From positions 1 through 11,473 of the forward strand of contig JABMQR010000155.1 in assembly GCA_013202335.1 (NCBI GenBank): DNA of 11,473 nt, written 5' to 3'. How positions within the stretch are numbered: the stretch's first letter is position 1; every line of letters starts with the position of its first letter. The stretch is from Bacteroidota bacterium (lineage in GTDB: Bacteria > Spirochaetota > Spirochaetia > JABMQR01). Below, one piece after another: positions 2,836-10,804 of the stretch. Position numbers and translations under genes: made by a program. The notes below the pieces were generated by a model that did no database searches, was not told where the DNA came from, and was given only the letters and a program-made list of their open reading frames with translations.

Positions 2836-2857
2836 AAAAGATGGTTGTATTTATCAG

Positions 2858-2888
2858 ACCGGCAGAGATGAAGATCTGTCGGTTTTTT
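2858..2888 (+). terminator. Intrinsic terminator of the NDK-like gene
   Basis: ACCGGCAGA (2858-2866) pairs with TCTGTCGGT (2875-2883), with one G-U pair, and runs into T6. It begins 22 nt after the stop codon. On the opposite strand the same stem has no U-tract, so it serves the plus strand and is at best a weak barrier for queH transcripts. Confidence 0.85.
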
Positions 2889-2901
2889 GTTTTACCAGGG
2901 T

Positions 2902-3468
2902 TTAAGATTTTTCTGTTTTCTTTGCCAAACTAAATTCACATCCGCAGTAGTCCTGCCGATAGAGATCCAGTTCATCACTAAGCTCGAGACTTCTCCTGAA
3001 GCCATTCTTTTTTTTGAAGTTTTCCTCGACAAAACCATCCAGAGTCCGTCCCGAATCAAAGATTGCTGCAGAGATTTTATGAGGACTAAGTGTCAGGGTC
3101 GTAGTAAATCTATTTAATCCAAGTTCATCAGCCTTATCTTTTGTCCTTTTTAAATTGAAGGCAAAACAGGAATTACATCTGGCCCCTCTCTCGGGTTCAT
3201 GTTCCAATCCCCTGACTGATTCCAGCCAGGCATCATGATCCCAGGTATCTTCAACTACTTCAATGTTGAAATGATCAGCTAGTTTTCTCACGTTATCAAG
3301 CCGTTTTTTATACTCTTCATGTGGAAAAATATTTGAGTTTGAAAAAAACAACAGTACCGTATCCCCATTCTTAATTAAACGCTCACTGGAGGGAGCAGCG
3401 CAGGGGGCACAGCAGGAGTGCAGGAGAATACGGGGATCTGTAGGTTTTTCATCAGTTTTTTGCATCAT
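2902..3468 (-). CDS. queH: Epoxyqueuosine reductase QueH
   Basis: QueH performs the last step of queuosine synthesis, reducing epoxyqueuosine to queuosine in tRNA wobble position 34. It is an Fe-S protein unrelated to cobalamin-dependent QueG. The 188-residue product matches the usual length of about 190-200. Conserved features (numbered from the ATG at 3468): the N-terminal HSCCAPC (Cys19, 20 and 23), the PP-loop-like LFFSNSNIFPHEEYKKRL stretch, ARCNSCF (Cys98 and 101), TTTLTLSPHK, and the C-terminal YRQDYCGCEFS (Cys175 and 177). The start is uncertain. ATGATG at 3468-3463 fits the family but has no Shine-Dalgarno, and it overlaps the stop of a tiny upstream ORF. An in-frame TTG at 3492 would add MWILLFLL. 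It is divergent from the FAD protein gene. Confidence 0.92.
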   Translation of the reverse strand: MMQKTDEKPTDPRILLHSCCAPCAAPSSERLIKNGDTVLLFFSNSNIFPHEEYKKRLDNVRKLADHFNIEVVEDTWDHDAWLESVRGLEHEPERGARCNSCFAFNLKRTKDKADELGLNRFTTTLTLSPHKISAAIFDSGRTLDGFVEENFKKKNGFRRSLELSDELDLYRQDYCGCEFSLAKKTEKS

Positions 3469-4902: not shown

Positions 4903-5583
4903 TTATAAACGTTTCCCGCTAAAAGTTTCTTTTCTTCCCGGGCAATTTTCCCGTTCACAATATTTACAGCTGGTGAAAGTAGTTTCTGATTCATAGAACA
5001 TTCCGGAAATAGTTTTATTCGGTACCATGAGGGAACTGGGAGTAAGCTGAACTCCGATAGGGGTTCCCTGATCAAGAAGATCGAATATACCGCCTAATTC
5101 CTGAACCGGCCAAATATCTACATTACCCGAACCCGGATTGACGCTGCTGACCTTTTCAATTCCATAAGTATCCTTAACATACTGTGCTGTATGCAGTCTT
5201 ACAGCACCAAGGGCCATGGTTTTTAGCGTATCCAGCCAGAAAGAGGCAAGCATATCCAGGGAAGAGGTGTCATAGGTCTCCATTTCATTTCCACAGGTTG
5301 CAATATAAGGAAAAAGACGGTGTACATTATCAAGCTCAGATAGGACTTTTCCCCTGAATGTACTTGTTCCTACCTGGAGAACCATCTCAGAGTCCTCTTT
5401 GGATCTACTCTCAATATATGCTGCAGCAATAAGGCTTTTTGGCTGCAGTTTTTCAACGGTTTTATCAAACAGGATTCGTGCTGCTTCTTCAGCATCCGGG
5501 TAGGCATCAAGCCGTATTAGCTTTATATATTTGTTATATGAAGGAGTGAAGGGTACATCAAGTTTTACATATTTCGGATTCAT
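4903..5583 (-). CDS. Stand-alone MetH-type reactivation (B12-dependent methionine synthase activation) domain protein
   Basis: The fold resembles the C-terminal reactivation domain of MetH, which binds AdoMet and helps return inactive cob(II)alamin to methylcobalamin. Free-standing versions exist, as in Thermotoga maritima next to a MetH lacking that domain. The product has 226 residues from the ATG at 5583, which has GGAG 7 nt upstream. Family-like segments are YIATCGNEME (93-102), SVNPGSGNVDIWPVQELGGIFDLL (147-170) and IGVQLTPSSLMVPNKTISGMF (176-196). A C-terminal CKYCERENC (Cys206, 209 and 214) could bind metal or Fe-S. It lies 20 nt after cobW, so the two are probably co-transcribed. No methionine synthase is in the window. 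Likely partner (inference): the corrinoid protein encoded just upstream. Whether it still binds AdoMet is unknown. Confidence 0.8.
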   Translation of the reverse strand: MNPKYVKLDVPFTPSYNKYIKLIRLDAYPDAEEAARILFDKTVEKLQPKSLIAAAYIESRSKEDSEMVLQVGTSTFRGKVLSELDNVHRLFPYIATCGNEMETYDTSSLDMLASFWLDTLKTMALGAVRLHTAQYVKDTYGIEKVSSVNPGSGNVDIWPVQELGGIFDLLDQGTPIGVQLTPSSLMVPNKTISGMFYESETTFTSCKYCERENCPGRKETFSGKRL

Positions 5584-5603
5584 AATATTCTCCAAATTAT
5601 TTA

Positions 5604-6578
5604 TTAGACGCTGATAAAAGCACCTGTTTCGGTGGCTGTACGCCAATTTTGAAACAACCTCTCTGGTTCTTTGCTGCTTCCTGGAAAGATTACGGTTAAT
5701 CCGGGTTTTGGTTGGGTATCTATATCACTGGTATAAAAAGGTTCGATATGTATCATATCAGCTACACAATCCACGAAAACCAAACCCTTATCTTCAGTTT
5801 CTACAAATCCTTTCAGCCGAAAGGATTTAGGTGCAATTGTTGTTATAAATGATTCCAGAGAATCAAACGAAACAGGTTTTGCAGGTACAATTTTTACCGG
5901 AATAGGTCTCCCTTCATCACCCCATCCCTGATATTTTTCAGCATCAAATTTTTCAATCAATATAGGGGAGAAATCCATATTCAGGAAATCCCGGTCTACT
6001 TCACCAAAACTTGTGAGGGCGATAGCCGCACCAGGCTTTAGTTCTTTTATTCTTTTAGTAATCCGCCCAATTACTTCAGGTTCTACAAGGTCTGTTTTAT
6101 TAATGATAAAGGTGTTGCTGTAACGAATTTGTTCCTCAATAGTAAGAAGAGTCTGGCTGAGAATCTCAAAACGTGAGGCATCAATAACACAAATCATACC
6201 TTTATACTCAATATTTCCCTGTGTTTTCTTATCCGCAAACTGCATGATTTCTATTAAAGGGGCTGGTTTTGCCAAACCTGAAGCTTCGACAAACAGCACA
6301 TCAATATCTTTATCATTATACTCTGCAATAGAATCAATAAATGTTCCGGAAATACAACTGCAGAAAATCTGTCCGCCGTTCAATTCAGTGGTTACTATTC
6401 CTGTTCGCGAAGAGAGTACTGTCCTATCAATTCCCAGTTCCCCGAATTCATTGACTATTACTCCAGGCTTTTTATCCTTATAAAATGCTAACAGAGAATT
6501 TAGCAGGGTAGTTTTCCCTGATCCCAGGAAACCTGTTAACAAGAAAAGGGGTACGGGTACGGGTTTTTTTTCGATCAT
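5604..6578 (-). CDS. CobW/COG0523-family GTP-binding protein
   Basis: This G3E-type P-loop GTPase has 324 residues. Motifs: Walker A TGFLGSGKTT (15-24), the switch region VNEFGELGID (42-51), VEASGLAKP (97-105) in place of the usual ESTG-type segment, and the guanine-specificity NKTD (160-163). A CobW C-terminal-like domain follows (about 225-305, including RLKGFVETEDKG). Family members deliver metals (Zn, Co) or act in cobalamin metabolism. The usual CxCC metal motif is here GGQIFCSC (68-75, Cys73 and Cys75), a variant of the kind I associate with corrinoid methyltransferase clusters. GAGG lies 6 nt before the ATG. It sits between the corrinoid protein and the MetH-like activator, suggesting a role in cofactor or metal loading, or in activation. 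It is separated from the former by a terminator, so it may need its own promoter or read-through. Confidence 0.9.
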   Translation of the reverse strand: MIEKKPVPVPLFLLTGFLGSGKTTLLNSLLAFYKDKKPGVIVNEFGELGIDRTVLSSRTGIVTTELNGGQIFCSCISGTFIDSIAEYNDKDIDVLFVEASGLAKPAPLIEIMQFADKKTQGNIEYKGMICVIDASRFEILSQTLLTIEEQIRYSNTFIINKTDLVEPEVIGRITKRIKELKPGAAIALTSFGEVDRDFLNMDFSPILIEKFDAEKYQGWGDEGRPIPVKIVPAKPVSFDSLESFITTIAPKSFRLKGFVETEDKGLVFVDCVADMIHIEPFYTSDIDTQPKPGLTVIFPGSSKEPERLFQNWRTATETGAFISV

Positions 6579-6621
6579 AGTAAGCCTCTTATCGATTTGA
6601 TTGAAATATGATGATCCGGAA

Positions 6622-6672
6622 GTGATAAAAAATAAAGGGGTCCTCTATTCCAGTTTATCTGGAGGACCCCTT
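6622..6672 (-). terminator. Strong intrinsic terminator after the corrinoid-protein gene
   Basis: AAGGGGTCCTC (6635-6645) and GAGGACCCCTT (6662-6672) form an 11-bp perfect stem. Read on the minus strand it is followed by TTTATTTTTTATC. It begins 38 nt beyond the corrinoid gene stop and precedes cobW by 56 nt. It should cut most transcripts here, making the corrinoid protein far more abundant than the two downstream accessory proteins. Confidence 0.88.
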
Positions 6673-6710
6673 ACTTGCTGTAATCAGAACCTGATAACAT
6701 TAATATCTGA

Positions 6711-7346
6711 TTATGCCTCGCAAATTTCTACAGCAACTTCGGATGCTGATGCAGCATCTGCTGTATAGTAGTCAGCATTAATATTTTCACAGTATGAAGT
6801 TGTAACCGGAGCGCCACCGATCATGATTTTAACATTGTCGCGGATACCGGCACTTTCCGCCTCTTTAACAATATTCTGCATTTCAGTCATTGTTGTTGTC
6901 AACAGTGCTGAACATGCAATAATGTTTGCATTGTTACTAATTGCTGCCTCAACAAATTGTTTGGGAGAAACATCAGTTCCAAGGTCGACAACTTCAAGCC
7001 CTTTCCCTTCCATCATCATACCGACAAGGTTTTTTCCGATATCATGAAGGTCACCTTTTACCGTTCCCAGTATAACCGTACCTTTAGAAACAACACCTGC
7101 ATCAACTAAAAATGGTTTTAGCAGCTCAGTTCCGGCATTCATTGCCCGTGCTGCAATAAGGACTTCAGGAACAAATACTTCGTTGTTTTTGAATTTTACC
7201 CCGATAATACTCATACCACTCATCAACCCTTCTTCAAGGATGATCTTTGCGCTAACACCTTCGTCGAGTGCTGCCTGTACCAGTTCTTTTACTTCTTTTG
7301 CTCTTCCTTTCTGCAAAAATTCGGATAGAGCGTTCATGTCTGCCAT
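6711..7346 (-). CDS. Corrinoid-binding protein of the methyltransferase (MtbC/MttC/MtgC) type
   Basis: A small B12 protein that carries a methyl group on cobalt between a substrate-specific methyltransferase and an acceptor methyltransferase. It has 211 residues, the usual length. The N-terminal helical cap (about 5-85) contains EGLMSGMSIIGVKF and VFVPEVLIAARAMNAG. The Rossmann-like cobalamin domain has the base-off/His-on signature GDLHDIGKN (98-106, His101 as lower cobalt ligand), then SALLTTTM (146-153) and GGAP (177-180). AAAGGAG lies 7 nt before the ATG. A cobalamin riboswitch precedes it and a strong terminator follows, so it is essentially its own unit. No methyltransferase partner is in the window, so the methyl donor cannot be named. 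Confidence 0.95.
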   Translation of the reverse strand: MADMNALSEFLQKGRAKEVKELVQAALDEGVSAKIILEEGLMSGMSIIGVKFKNNEVFVPEVLIAARAMNAGTELLKPFLVDAGVVSKGTVILGTVKGDLHDIGKNLVGMMMEGKGLEVVDLGTDVSPKQFVEAAISNNANIIACSALLTTTMTEMQNIVKEAESAGIRDNVKIMIGGAPVTTSYCENINADYYTADAASASEVAVEICEA

Positions 7347-7402
7347 GACTTTTCTCCTTTTGCATACAGCTCATTCCACGAAGCTTAATAGCGAAATAAA
7401 TC

Positions 7403-7550
7403 TGGTAGGGGCAACCTGGCTCTCTCTTTATTGCTGAAAAACCGAATAATACAAGCAGCAAATAGAAATTACAGTGACGGGCTCGCGGAAGAATTTCACT
7501 TCCTTTCCCCCTCTCTCAGATAGTATTATGATGCTATAACAATACCTTCG
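7403..7550 (-). promoter_or_regulatory. Cobalamin riboswitch in the leader of the corrinoid-protein gene
   Basis: Read on the minus strand the segment follows the cobalamin riboswitch consensus in order. GAAGGTATTG (P1 side) begins at about 7549. GGGGAAAGGAAG then runs into a GGAAG/CTTCC hairpin, GCGAGCCCGTCACTGTAA holds the CACTGT core (7471-7481), and the B12-box-like AGAGCCAGGTTGCC with CCCTACC closes at 7403-7424. GGTA at the 5' end can pair with TACC at the 3' end to close P1. The ATG lies 56 nt downstream. I see no strong GC-rich terminator between aptamer and gene, which points to control of translation or to a weak platform. Confidence 0.85.
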
Positions 7551-7575
7551 AAAATGGTATCAGTCTGTGAAATTT

Positions 7576-7603
7576 TTTATAAAAATTGTATTTTCTTTTG
7601 AAC
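7576..7603 (-). promoter_or_regulatory. Candidate promoter of the riboswitch/corrinoid-protein transcript
   Basis: On the minus strand TATAAA (7581-7576) has a weak -35-like GTTCAA 16 bp upstream (7603-7598). Transcription would begin near 7568, just before the riboswitch aptamer. The same spot is an all-A/T perfect inverted repeat (AATTTTT, TAT, AAAAATT; 7571-7587), which could instead slow or end transcripts from the upstream regulator gene. Confidence 0.3.
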
Positions 7604-7622
7604 TTGAGGGATAAAGCAGTGG

Positions 7623-8939
7623 TTACGTATGGATTTCCTGTTTGCTCCGCTGAATCTTTCCTGAGTTTTCCCGGTACTTGCCGGGGGATATCCCGGCTAT
7701 GCTTTTAAATACCCGGGAAAAATAACTTTGATCCTCAAATCCCACCAAACCGGAAATCTCTATGAGTGTACAGGGAGTGGTGCGGAGCAGAGTTTTTGCA
7801 TGATCGATCCTGATCCTGTTTATGTAGATGGTAAAACTGCAGTTCATCTCTTCTTTAAAAATCTTACTGAAATAAGCCGGACTTAGTGCAGCGTACGATG
7901 CAGCATCTTCAAGGCTGATTTTTTCTGTATAATGGGAATTAATATAATGGAGAGTACGTTCCAACCGGTCAACATGTTTTACCTCCTGCAGGTTGAATAC
8001 CTGCGAAGCAAACCTGTTTAAAACACCGGATAACCAATATGCAAGACTGTCTACATTCGTGAATTGTTCTATCTCACGTAAATAGCGGTAGTTGTATGTC
8101 AGAATATCGTCCGGATTTGCCCCGCCGTCAATCGAAGCACGGGAAAGAAGGATAATTAATTCAAGAATACGGAATTTTATGATCTCAAAATCCCGACCGC
8201 TTGAAAAGAAAACATTTCCCAGTATCTCATTTAACAACCTCTGTGCCTGATCCCGGTTTCCCCGTGATATTGCTGAAAGCAGTTCATCTTCTTTCTCGAT
8301 AGGATATGAAACTGTGGATCTGTCACTGGTAGATCTCTTTAATTCATGAATATATTCTGAGATGTGAGATTGCTGATCCTGATATTCACGGCTTTCAATC
8401 AGCATTAGGTCACTTGTTTCACGTACCCATCCGGCACACATTAACAGCAGTTCTGAGAGGCTTCGTGATCTTTCCGTTGTTATTACCGGTATTTCATCAA
8501 CATATTCTCTGAATACATCTTCGGTAATCGATGGGTACAGTTTTCCCCATTCCTCAACAACTTCATCTTTCGTGACCATCATAGCAGGTCCAGCAATAAA
8601 TGCCCCAATTAGTAAACCATCTTTGATTATAGGACTGCTCCAGTAGAGGAGGAAGGAGGAGCAGAAGTAGATAAAACTACCGCCAAACCGTTCTGCCTGG
8701 CGTGCATTATGTAAGTGATTTCTTCCACATAAGGGGCCTATACGTTTATCAGGATAATCATTTGCAATTTTACAGAAGCAAAAGTTACTTTTTTCATCAA
8801 GAAGTAATGCATCATTTATAATCCGGCACGATATCCCGGTGCTGTGAGAATAATGTGCTGCTATTTCATCAGCTCTTTTCAGAATATATTGGGTAGTGCC
8901 GGGATTTGGCTCTTGTTCGGTTCCCATAGAATAGGTCAT
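7623..8939 (-). CDS. AraC-family transcriptional regulator with N-terminal PocR sensor domain
   Basis: This is a DNA-binding activator or repressor. The N-terminal PocR domain (about 15-180) is proposed to sense small hydrocarbon-like molecules and is common beside B12-dependent pathways. It contains the Cys-rich CFCKIANDYPDKRIGPLCGRNH stretch (Cys54, 56 and 71 from the ATG) and IYFCSSFLLYWSSPI (Cys93). A helical linker (about 185-320) leads to the AraC double HTH (about 328-427), with SLEDAASYAALSPAYFSKIFKEEM and the second-helix signature ISGLVGFEDQSYFSRVFKSIAGISPGKYR. The 438-residue start at 8939 overlaps the RACE stop by one base (TGATG), with GGAG 7 nt before it. It is thus coupled to the activator gene and probably controls this cluster. 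Ligand and operator are unknown. Confidence 0.92.
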   Translation of the reverse strand: MTYSMGTEQEPNPGTTQYILKRADEIAAHYSHSTGISCRIINDALLLDEKSNFCFCKIANDYPDKRIGPLCGRNHLHNARQAERFGGSFIYFCSSFLLYWSSPIIKDGLLIGAFIAGPAMMVTKDEVVEEWGKLYPSITEDVFREYVDEIPVITTERSRSLSELLLMCAGWVRETSDLMLIESREYQDQQSHISEYIHELKRSTSDRSTVSYPIEKEDELLSAISRGNRDQAQRLLNEILGNVFFSSGRDFEIIKFRILELIILLSRASIDGGANPDDILTYNYRYLREIEQFTNVDSLAYWLSGVLNRFASQVFNLQEVKHVDRLERTLHYINSHYTEKISLEDAASYAALSPAYFSKIFKEEMNCSFTIYINRIRIDHAKTLLRTTPCTLIEISGLVGFEDQSYFSRVFKSIAGISPGKYRENSGKIQRSKQEIHT

Positions 8940-10804
8940 CAATAATCTCCAAAATACATTTCTTCGATATAAAATTGCTGAAAATCAGCACGTGCTGAAA
9001 GTTCTATATAAGAACAATGTAACTGTATAACTTGCAGATTGTCAAATTCATTCCTGTCAAGGAGTGCCCAAACTGCTCCTTCACCGGAAGTATTTCCTGC
9101 TGTTTCTGTTTTTTCAGATAGATTTCCGGGAAGTAATCCAATTATACCAGCGCTTTCAGGGTTAATATAGCTTCCAAATCCTCCGGCAAGATATACATGA
9201 TCAACATCCTCAAGGGATATATTGCGTTCTTTTAACAGGGTCATTATGCCCCCGGCAACAGCAGCTTTAGCCAACTGGACTTCCCGAAGATCTTTCTGAG
9301 TAAAAACGATCGGAACGCCGTTTTTAGTCTCTTCAGCACTTGCAAGAAGAAGTGCAGGCAGGTCGTCAAATTCTACAATCCAGGGTGCATTGAAGTCGTC
9401 CTGTGATTCTATTCTTCCGGTATAATCAGCTGCTTCGGAAGAGATAAGCAGAGCTGCTGCATCTATAATCCCGGAGCCGCAGATGCCTATTGGTGGAGTA
9501 TTGCCTATTGTGGTATAGATAACTTTCCCATTCTCAAGTTTCACAGAATCTATAGCACCGGTAACACCGCCCATTCCATACCGGATATTGGCTCCTTCAA
9601 AAGCCGGGCCTGCAGCGGTAGAGCAGCAGATTGCCTTACCGTTATCACCCAATGCCATCTCTCCATTTGTTCCAATATCTAAAAATAGGGTGGGGGATGT
9701 TTTATTGAGAAGATTTGTGACACTAATACCCGCTGAGATATCCGCACCAACATAAGCAGCTATAGACGGAAGAAGTTCAATTCTTGCTTTGGGAATGGAG
9801 AAAAATCCCAGATCGGCTCCGAAAAATGTGAGAAAATCGGTAAAAACAGGAATAAAAGGGGAGGCTGCTATTCCAGAAGTGTCACAGCCGGTAAGAAAGT
9901 GGAGCATTGTGGTATTTCCGGCAATAGTCATAATTTTCACCTGCTGTTCAGTTAAAGCTGACTCTTTAAGCAAATAATTAACCGCGTTGTCGATCTGAGA
10001 AACAATGGTTTTTTGCAGTTTGCCGGTATTCTCTTTTTGTTCCATACTGAACTGAATTCTGCTGATTACATCTGCACCGTAGCGTTTTTGTTCATTCATC
10101 CCTGACCAGGTTCCCATAACTGTACCATTTACAAGGTTTATGAGGTGGATGACAATCGTTGTTGTTCCAATATCTACAGCACATCCATAATAGAGGGTTT
10201 CATAGTTCTGAATCTCTATCAACTCAGATTTGTCCATCAGTACATGCCATTTATTTGAACTGCTGTTATCGGATTTATCTATAGAATCTGATGAAGTACC
10301 CAGAGTCTGCAGGGAAGCAGGAGTGAATGATGTATTAACTGATTTCTGTAATGGAGAAATGCCGGATACCTCAATTTCTGATAATACCTTTGAAAGAGTA
10401 CTCTTCTGATCATCCAAAGATCCTGAATCAATAGTAATATCCTGCATTTGAAATCTTGGGTTATGCTTTTTCATCAGCAGGGCACATGAAGCCTGAATGC
10501 GTAATTCAGCAGCTTCGGGAATATATACAGTAACGGGACTGTTTTCCTGGATGCTGCATCGGCAGGCCATTCTGATACCTTTAGCCATATCCGGGGAATC
10601 AAGCAGTGATTTCTCCTGATCGGTAATTGGATTGAGAATTCCTTCTTTAAGGATAATCCTGCATTTTCCACAGGTTCCCTTACCTCCGCAGGGGGCATTG
10701 AATCCTGGTATTTCTAATTCTTGTATAATATCAAGTAAATTTGTACCGGCTGCAGTTTCCTGTGTATACTCATCCGTTTTATGAATGAGAGTTAATTTGC
10801 TCAT
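8939..10804 (-). CDS. RACE/RamA-like reductive activator of corrinoid enzymes (2Fe-2S plus ASKHA ATPase, DUF4445)
   Basis: These proteins use ATP and a low-potential electron to rescue corrinoid proteins that have oxidised to Co(II). The 621-residue product starts with a plant-type 2Fe-2S domain: CGGKGTCGKC (Cys39, 45 and 48) and MACRC (Cys81, possibly 83). The sequence from about 125 to 190 is an unusually Ser/Thr/Asp-rich linker. The ASKHA-type ATPase domain follows: CAVDIGTTT (208-216), AGNTTML (295-301), FLDIGTNGEM (374-383), STAAGPAFEGANIRYGMG (395-412), GICGSG (440-445) and YLAGGFGSYINP (538-549). A strong Shine-Dalgarno (GGAGG) precedes the ATG. The gene overlaps the PocR/AraC regulator and lies 29 nt after the gamma-carbonic-anhydrase gene. 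The likely client is the corrinoid protein at 6711-7346. Confidence 0.95.
   Translation of the reverse strand: MSKLTLIHKTDEYTQETAAGTNLLDIIQELEIPGFNAPCGGKGTCGKCRIILKEGILNPITDQEKSLLDSPDMAKGIRMACRCSIQENSPVTVYIPEAAELRIQASCALLMKKHNPRFQMQDITIDSGSLDDQKSTLSKVLSEIEVSGISPLQKSVNTSFTPASLQTLGTSSDSIDKSDNSSSNKWHVLMDKSELIEIQNYETLYYGCAVDIGTTTIVIHLINLVNGTVMGTWSGMNEQKRYGADVISRIQFSMEQKENTGKLQKTIVSQIDNAVNYLLKESALTEQQVKIMTIAGNTTMLHFLTGCDTSGIAASPFIPVFTDFLTFFGADLGFFSIPKARIELLPSIAAYVGADISAGISVTNLLNKTSPTLFLDIGTNGEMALGDNGKAICCSTAAGPAFEGANIRYGMGGVTGAIDSVKLENGKVIYTTIGNTPPIGICGSGIIDAAALLISSEAADYTGRIESQDDFNAPWIVEFDDLPALLLASAEETKNGVPIVFTQKDLREVQLAKAAVAGGIMTLLKERNISLEDVDHVYLAGGFGSYINPESAGIIGLLPGNLSEKTETAGNTSGEGAVWALLDRNEFDNLQVIQLHCSYIELSARADFQQFYIEEMYFGDY

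Follow-up and report, generated by a model that had tools for sequence, protein, structure and literature searches.

Most cobalamin riboswitches govern B12 synthesis, B12 import or genes whose products stand in for B12. The DNA analyzed here (a stretch of 11,473 nucleotides, hereafter the window) raises the question of why such an element should stand in front of a gene whose product uses the cofactor, and which sign its control would then take. A sequence-only reading of the window had proposed a cobalamin riboswitch in the minus-strand leader of a corrinoid-protein gene; the features of this locus are collected in Table 1.

Table 1. Features of the leader and of its neighbouring genes (window coordinates)
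Feature	Position	Strand	Remarks
Gamma-carbonic-anhydrase-like gene	11394-10834	-	
RACo-type reductive activator of corrinoid proteins	8939-10804	-	
AraC-type regulator with PocR sensory domain	7623-8942	-	directly upstream of the leader
AT-rich stretch, candidate AraC-type operator/promoter region	7567-7593	-	between regulator gene and aptamer
Cobalamin riboswitch aptamer, compact, without class-I peripheral domain	7405-7534	-	RF01482 and model R1
GGGGGAAAGG	7511-7502	-	
Hairpin GGAAGTGAAATTCTTCC	7503-7487	-	
Core GAGCCCGTCACTGT with L5 loop AGCCCG	7471-7484	-	L5 assigned through UCCCG/GCCCG in the accessible part of PMC10653944
B12-box-like 3' strand GAGCCAGGTTGCCCC	7408-7422	-	aligned to RF01482 and relatives
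P13 hairpin with L13	7368-7385	-	CGTGG at 7380-7376
Shine-Dalgarno (SD) sequence AAGGAG	7354-7359	-	8 nt past P13
Corrinoid (methyl-shuttle) protein, 211 aa	6711-7346	-	B12-binding and B12-binding_2 domains
CobW-type GTPase	5604-6578	-	next downstream of the corrinoid gene
Methionine synthase activation domain, weak match	4903-5646	-	22.8 bits, cut-off 25

When the window was searched with the Rfam models, as the sequence-only reading had proposed, the AdoCbl family RF01482 matched at 7534-7358 of the minus strand over its entire length (model positions 1-149 of 149), with 40.1 bits and an E-value of 1.2e-4; this is below the gathering score of 50, and the window thus stays under the curated score of clan CL00101. 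The match ends 11 nt from the ATG of the corrinoid gene (7346-6711), on the same strand. A second covariance model (R1), built from ten orthologous leaders with the window and the relatives' leaders L001 and L126 left out, found the window at 7521-7405 of the minus strand with 52.6 bits over model positions 1-135 of 135, at an E-value which, rough as such values are for covariance models of this kind, makes a chance match very unlikely (2.2e-11 in 848,579 bases). The minus-strand motifs named in the sequence-only reading could be located, and the span that it had given (7347-7568) is about right, the leader extending to 7347. The riboswitch class proposed there is supported as well, and the product of the downstream gene, which had been taken for a cobalamin-binding protein, carries two B12-binding domains. 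Folding stability alone does not set the window RNA apart (z 0.39).

In the leaders of ten full-length relatives, 14 of the 31 consensus pairs display double changes with pairing kept, indicating a conserved core with covarying helices in a set to which the window itself does not belong. In addition, every one of the 13 leaders has an L5 and an L13 that are complementary over four or more Watson-Crick pairs, with a single base bulged in 12 of them, as judged by a test that measures complementarity rather than contact and that uses P13 hairpins picked by eye; the L5 sequences and the kissing-loop role follow the accessible part of PMC10653944. Nine leaders pair CCCG with CGNGG, the window among them with CG(T)GG, in each case with one base bulged; in the three leaders with L5 AUCCCG the complementarity reaches six pairs. 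L126 combines CGCG with CGCG, and its L5 pairs poorly with the L13 of the others, an apparent compensatory change that is suggestive only, because the hairpin was chosen after the loop had been noticed. At the level of sequence, covariation and L5-L13 complementarity support a functional RNA. Placement of L5 in another hairpin was ruled out by the L5 sequences in the accessible text of PMC10653944.

Counting the window, 13 distinct leaders of this corrinoid-gene type were found, five of which come from named genomes, all labelled spirochaete. Of the 12 other leaders, ten reach the curated score of RF00174, three of them with a match confined to model positions 45-169, and L126 reaches that of RF01482; the L001 gene, at 39.4 bits, falls below the cut-off like the window. 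R1 finds L001 at 54.3 bits and L126 at 47.2 bits. By locus, four of 12 (L003, L006, L007 and L029) have RF00174 over its cut-off directly upstream of the corrinoid gene. A second set (L116-L127) gave a switch match up to E 0.1 in 9 of 12 loci, namely seven with RF00174 over cut-off, L126 with RF01482 at 53.8 bits and L117 at 39.4 bits (below cut-off), where L117 and L119 duplicate the genes already represented by L001 and L007; no match up to E 0.1 was obtained in L120, L121 and L127, nor any switch match in the seven lower-identity homologues L128-L134. Among the best 80 of 577 loci, from clostridial and other relatives, a switch precedes the corrinoid gene only in L001, L003, L006, L007 and L029, and the operon only in L056, the upstream sequence being too short in L065 and L077 (<250 nt) and in L079 (none). 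Leader DNA used as query matched over short stretches in 15 of the 392 phylum genomes searched, and two of these matches (L106 and L112) are the corrinoid-gene leaders already counted as L125 and L116. A corrinoid homologue at E 1e-50 occurs in 39 of these 392 genomes, and the switch check covers those with loci extracted.

Across 84 sources, R1 found, beyond corrinoid-gene leaders, only L056 from Synergistaceae (59.9 bits; 76.4 bits by Rfam). There, a cobalamin riboswitch (2850-3025) precedes a PocR/AraC-corrinoid gene pair, with no ORF of at least 70 aa contained entirely between the switch and the regulator gene on that strand and with a homoserine O-succinyltransferase gene (5266-6258) 3' of the corrinoid gene.

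The class-I peripheral domain is absent in the window, L001 and L126 and present in the ten other orthologous leaders, so that full class-I and compact aptamers both occur before orthologous genes. Together with the window's 40.1 bits against a gathering score of 50, this absence is what would be expected if the element were a degenerate, non-functional relic of a class-I riboswitch. We regard such decay as improbable, given that GTCACTGT and AGCCAG as well as the L5-L13 complementarity are retained in all three compact leaders and that the compact form requires at least two changes on the protein tree. This tree comprised 32 corrinoid proteins (13 carriers and 19 selected others) and placed all carriers in one group of 16 rows (support 84/88), drawn open and with three non-carriers inside (L026, L054 and L121), for which reason a single gain with losses is plausible, not shown. 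Taken together, the two models, the covariation and the recurrence among relatives make it very probable that the leader contains a real cobamide riboswitch acting on the corrinoid-protein gene. The placement of a B12 riboswitch before a corrinoid shuttle gene is conserved in relatives and unusual.

On the minus strand, the locus runs from the carbonic anhydrase-like gene through the RACo gene, the PocR/AraC gene (4-nt overlap between these two genes) and the leader to the corrinoid protein, CobW and the activation-domain-like protein. The 211-aa product belongs to the corrinoid proteins with two domains, of the MtgC/MtbC/MtaC type, and is MtgC/MtbC-like while scoring under the cut-offs of those families; none of the full-length corrinoid families matched it at its cut-off. 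Among the best 120 of 7997 homologues, the closest named one belongs to Spirochaetales (86% identical), and five further ones are 94-96% identical.

Six relatives (L146, L001, L007, L147, L149 and L152) carry a gene for a URO-D (MtaA/CmuA-like) methyltransferase in the interval from the corrinoid gene to cobW, and the C-terminus of its product gives a weak thioredoxin match in five of these six (none at E 1e-5 in L147). The window has only 132 nt at this place (6579-6710, minus strand), so that its methyltransferase partner is missing or lies elsewhere. In L003 and L150 an aldose epimerase gene is found 3' of the corrinoid gene, and L151 has an ORF of similar length and position, which implies that the switch acts on the corrinoid gene itself there. 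Nearby genes encode electron-transfer flavoproteins in L006 and L148 and methylenetetrahydrofolate reductase in L029, and the genomes of L148 and L006 (G267 and G003) have a MetH-like pterin-domain match within 3 kb of the corrinoid gene. This setting fits a one-carbon shuttle to tetrahydrofolate. A role as the main methionine synthase is less likely because MetH is present in the relatives' genomes, scoring above its cut-off in eight of 12 and occurring as a nearly full-length or fragmented match in the remaining four, with a MetE-type match in two of 12 (one strong). Use of glycine betaine or trimethylamine was also considered and set aside, MttB-family genes occurring in only 4 of 12 genomes.

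The first 12 genomes contain 24 places that match RF00174 at E 0.001, five of which are corrinoid-gene leaders and 19 others. Ten of these 19 other targets were profiled and comprise two CbiK, four periplasmic binding proteins, one CbiA-type protein, one TonB receptor, one anaerobic ribonucleotide reductase and one without match. Such genes are the kinds of target that are usually repressed. In the accessible part of a 2013 survey of 535 sites, cobalamin regulons fall into four classes, none of them for B12-using enzymes (PMC3766115). The sequence-only reading was thus fair in calling a B12 user an odd target, yet a precedent exists: the accessible part of PMC9600662 describes the leader of Veillonella parvula mutA, which likewise precedes the gene of a B12-dependent enzyme, as a working cobalamin riboswitch. 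That enzyme is a mutase and not a methyl-corrinoid shuttle, and the assay was one of repression.

A terminator scan of the window leader (7300-7700) detected none on the minus strand, the sole match being on the plus strand, in line with the earlier statement that no strong terminator separates aptamer and ATG; an intrinsic terminator as in a cobT-type platform was thus not found on this strand, and control in the window is probably translational. Alternatively, the leader might work via a distinct small RNA or at the level of transcription (for example through Rho), as the eut AdoCbl aptamer does by sequestering a regulator; for this, EutX/Rli55 offers a precedent (accessible part of PMC5821096), and we give it very little credence here, the aptamer match ending so close to the ATG on the same strand and no terminator having been found.

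With respect to the sign, an OFF switch, in which the bound aptamer, the kissing loop and P13 would crowd the ribosome site and so limit apo-protein or spare cobamide, is a serious contender that we place somewhat under even odds. Most corrinoid riboswitches that have been assayed are repressors: 38 of 86 reporters were repressed, that of V. parvula mutA included (PMC9600662, accessible part), against one activator (PMC10653944). Why a cofactor should shut off a gene whose product depends on it is hard to rationalise, which speaks against OFF. In the window, only 2 nt separate the end of an extended P13 (7392-7362) from the SD at 7359, and in L104, the anaerobic ribonucleotide reductase leader of a relative, the SD overlaps the end of P13; both points are in keeping with an OFF switch. 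A weak P13 is also present in a tested repressor riboswitch, which counts against ON.

We compared the platforms of the corrinoid leaders with those of the 19 other switch loci, omitting L093, L094, L101 and L103 (no P13 assigned), which left 15 controls for SD position, and additionally L086 (P13 probability 0.00, SD paired), which left 14 for P13-arm pairing; P13s and SDs were assigned by eye with the L13 motif as guide, a possible source of bias in the P13/SD, pairing, shuffle and L5-L13 tests. The SD lies within P13 in 7 of 15 controls and in 0 of 12 corrinoid-protein leaders, which speaks against OFF, whereas the P13-SD gaps of the eight other controls (5-65 nt) and of the corrinoid leaders (8-53 nt) overlap, which speaks for it. 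P13 is predicted to form unaided (P >=0.5) in 3 of 13 corrinoid leaders (L001, L116 and L126) versus 10 of 14 controls, and its median predicted cost is 4.1 versus 0.0 kcal/mol (Mann-Whitney p 0.002, with related leaders that are not independent and a negative cost of L126 that is an artefact of a mismatched stem). In 8 of 13 leaders, representing about three clades and not including the window, the P13 hairpin is predicted to pair with the ribosome-binding site or the initial codons (mean 0.20-0.68); the corresponding values in controls are at most 0.03 in the seven with the SD outside P13, and 0.11 over all 14, a measure comparable in these seven only because the SD lies within P13 in the other seven. 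After shuffling of the 3' part, this pairing was clearly above chance in only 2 of 13 leaders (L123 and L125, fraction 0.01); six others gave fractions of 0.09-0.19 and the remaining five, which include the window, 0.46-0.93; a duplex test gave fractions of 0.04-0.82 over 12 leaders (L126 left out).

In the window, the P13 arms are predicted to pair upstream and not with the ribosome site. The predicted fold joins the leader 5' end (7542-7528) to the P13 3' arm (7374-7360, minus strand), nearly to the SD, a pairing whose counterpart was not seen by eye in L001. SD accessibility is 0.36 with and 0.36 without P13 (0.58 with another choice of ends), and window thermodynamics alone were therefore dropped as uninformative for the sign. 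Two further approaches were likewise abandoned: pairing of the SD with the aptamer 3' strand as an ON design appears in L001 and clearly in no other leader, and a P13 truncation series gave no common pattern.

Among the controls, by eye, the periplasmic binding protein leader L084 shows a hairpin (CAUAUCC/GGAUAUG) that covers the start codon and, past P13, a GGGUAUGG segment that competes with it, which look like a sequestor/antisequestor pair of presumed OFF sign; L087, also a periplasmic binding protein leader, has a similar layout.

Overall, the predicted platforms of the relatives lean modestly towards ON, and the window itself does not decide. An ON switch thus appears slightly likelier than an OFF switch, at about an even chance; neither estimate goes further because of the shuffle result in 2 of 13 leaders, the roughly three clades, the P13s picked by eye and the position of the window outside the eight leaders.

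Regarding a second input, 12 of the 13 carriers have a PocR/AraC homologue that ends just upstream, and none was found in L029. The sequence upstream of the aptamer in the 13 leaders contains a repeat with a period of 20 (mean best match 9.62 of 16, versus 7.49, sd 0.39, in shuffles, 0 of 200 being as high). Of the 20 periods tried, this one scored highest, and 19 and 21 were raised too. In 11 of 13 the best-matching position of the repeat ends 83-94 nt upstream of the core (possible range 55-104), L003 and L123 contributing little upstream sequence, and the repeat of the window itself is weak (8 of 16 positions). The 20-bp period suggests two half-sites of an AraC-type regulator, and hence a candidate operator. 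No sigma-70-type promoter matched on either strand of the window leader region. According to the accessible part of PMC9768040, small hydrocarbons are the proposed signal for a PocR domain in a corrinoid methyltransferase cluster.

These observations suggest a model in which the cobalamin-clan riboswitch in the 5' leader would set translation of the corrinoid protein by free cobamide, with the PocR/AraC regulator probably controlling transcription of the same leader. Binding of cobamide and the kissing loop would stabilise P13, whose arms would then leave the ribosome-binding region and so turn translation ON, and the shuttle protein would be made when methyl-donor signal and cofactor supply coincide, as in an AND gate of substrate and cofactor. 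We consider this combination of a translational cobamide switch, slightly favouring ON, with PocR/AraC control of transcription to be the best explanation, at a probability of about 0.5. Its extension to a family of corrinoid riboswitches, translational, activating and conserved in spirochaetes, which would form such a gate with PocR/AraC and would have lost the peripheral domain more than once while L5 and L13 stayed complementary, is a tentative proposal, to which we give distinctly less than an even chance.

The element resembles members of clan CL00101 (RF00174 Cobalamin and RF01482 AdoCbl) in its core, CACTGT, B12-box-like strand, L5-L13 complementarity and P13, and differs in its target, a corrinoid shuttle protein. 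The one activating corrinoid riboswitch that we found in print, that of A. halodurans cobT, uses P13 itself as antiterminator (accessible part of PMC10653944); the relatives' predicted alternative pairing similarly involves the P13 arms, so that P13 itself would be the permissive structure, whereas cobT control is transcriptional, with a terminator that has no equivalent found in the window leader, and precedes a biosynthesis gene. EutX/Rli55 also couples B12 supply and a substrate sensor to a B12-using catabolic pathway, and acts in trans on a response regulator, unlike the cis-acting aptamer of the window (accessible part of PMC5821096). If ON, the switch would be the first translational activating corrinoid riboswitch found in print among open-licence papers and would explain an aptamer before a cofactor-using gene; even if OFF, corrinoid shuttle proteins join the targets, and the 13 orthologous leaders offer material on the evolution of sign and aptamer class.

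Elsewhere in the window, a plus-strand gene (1645-2835) encodes a 396-aa protein with two separate nucleoside diphosphate kinase matches, the family profile having 135 positions.
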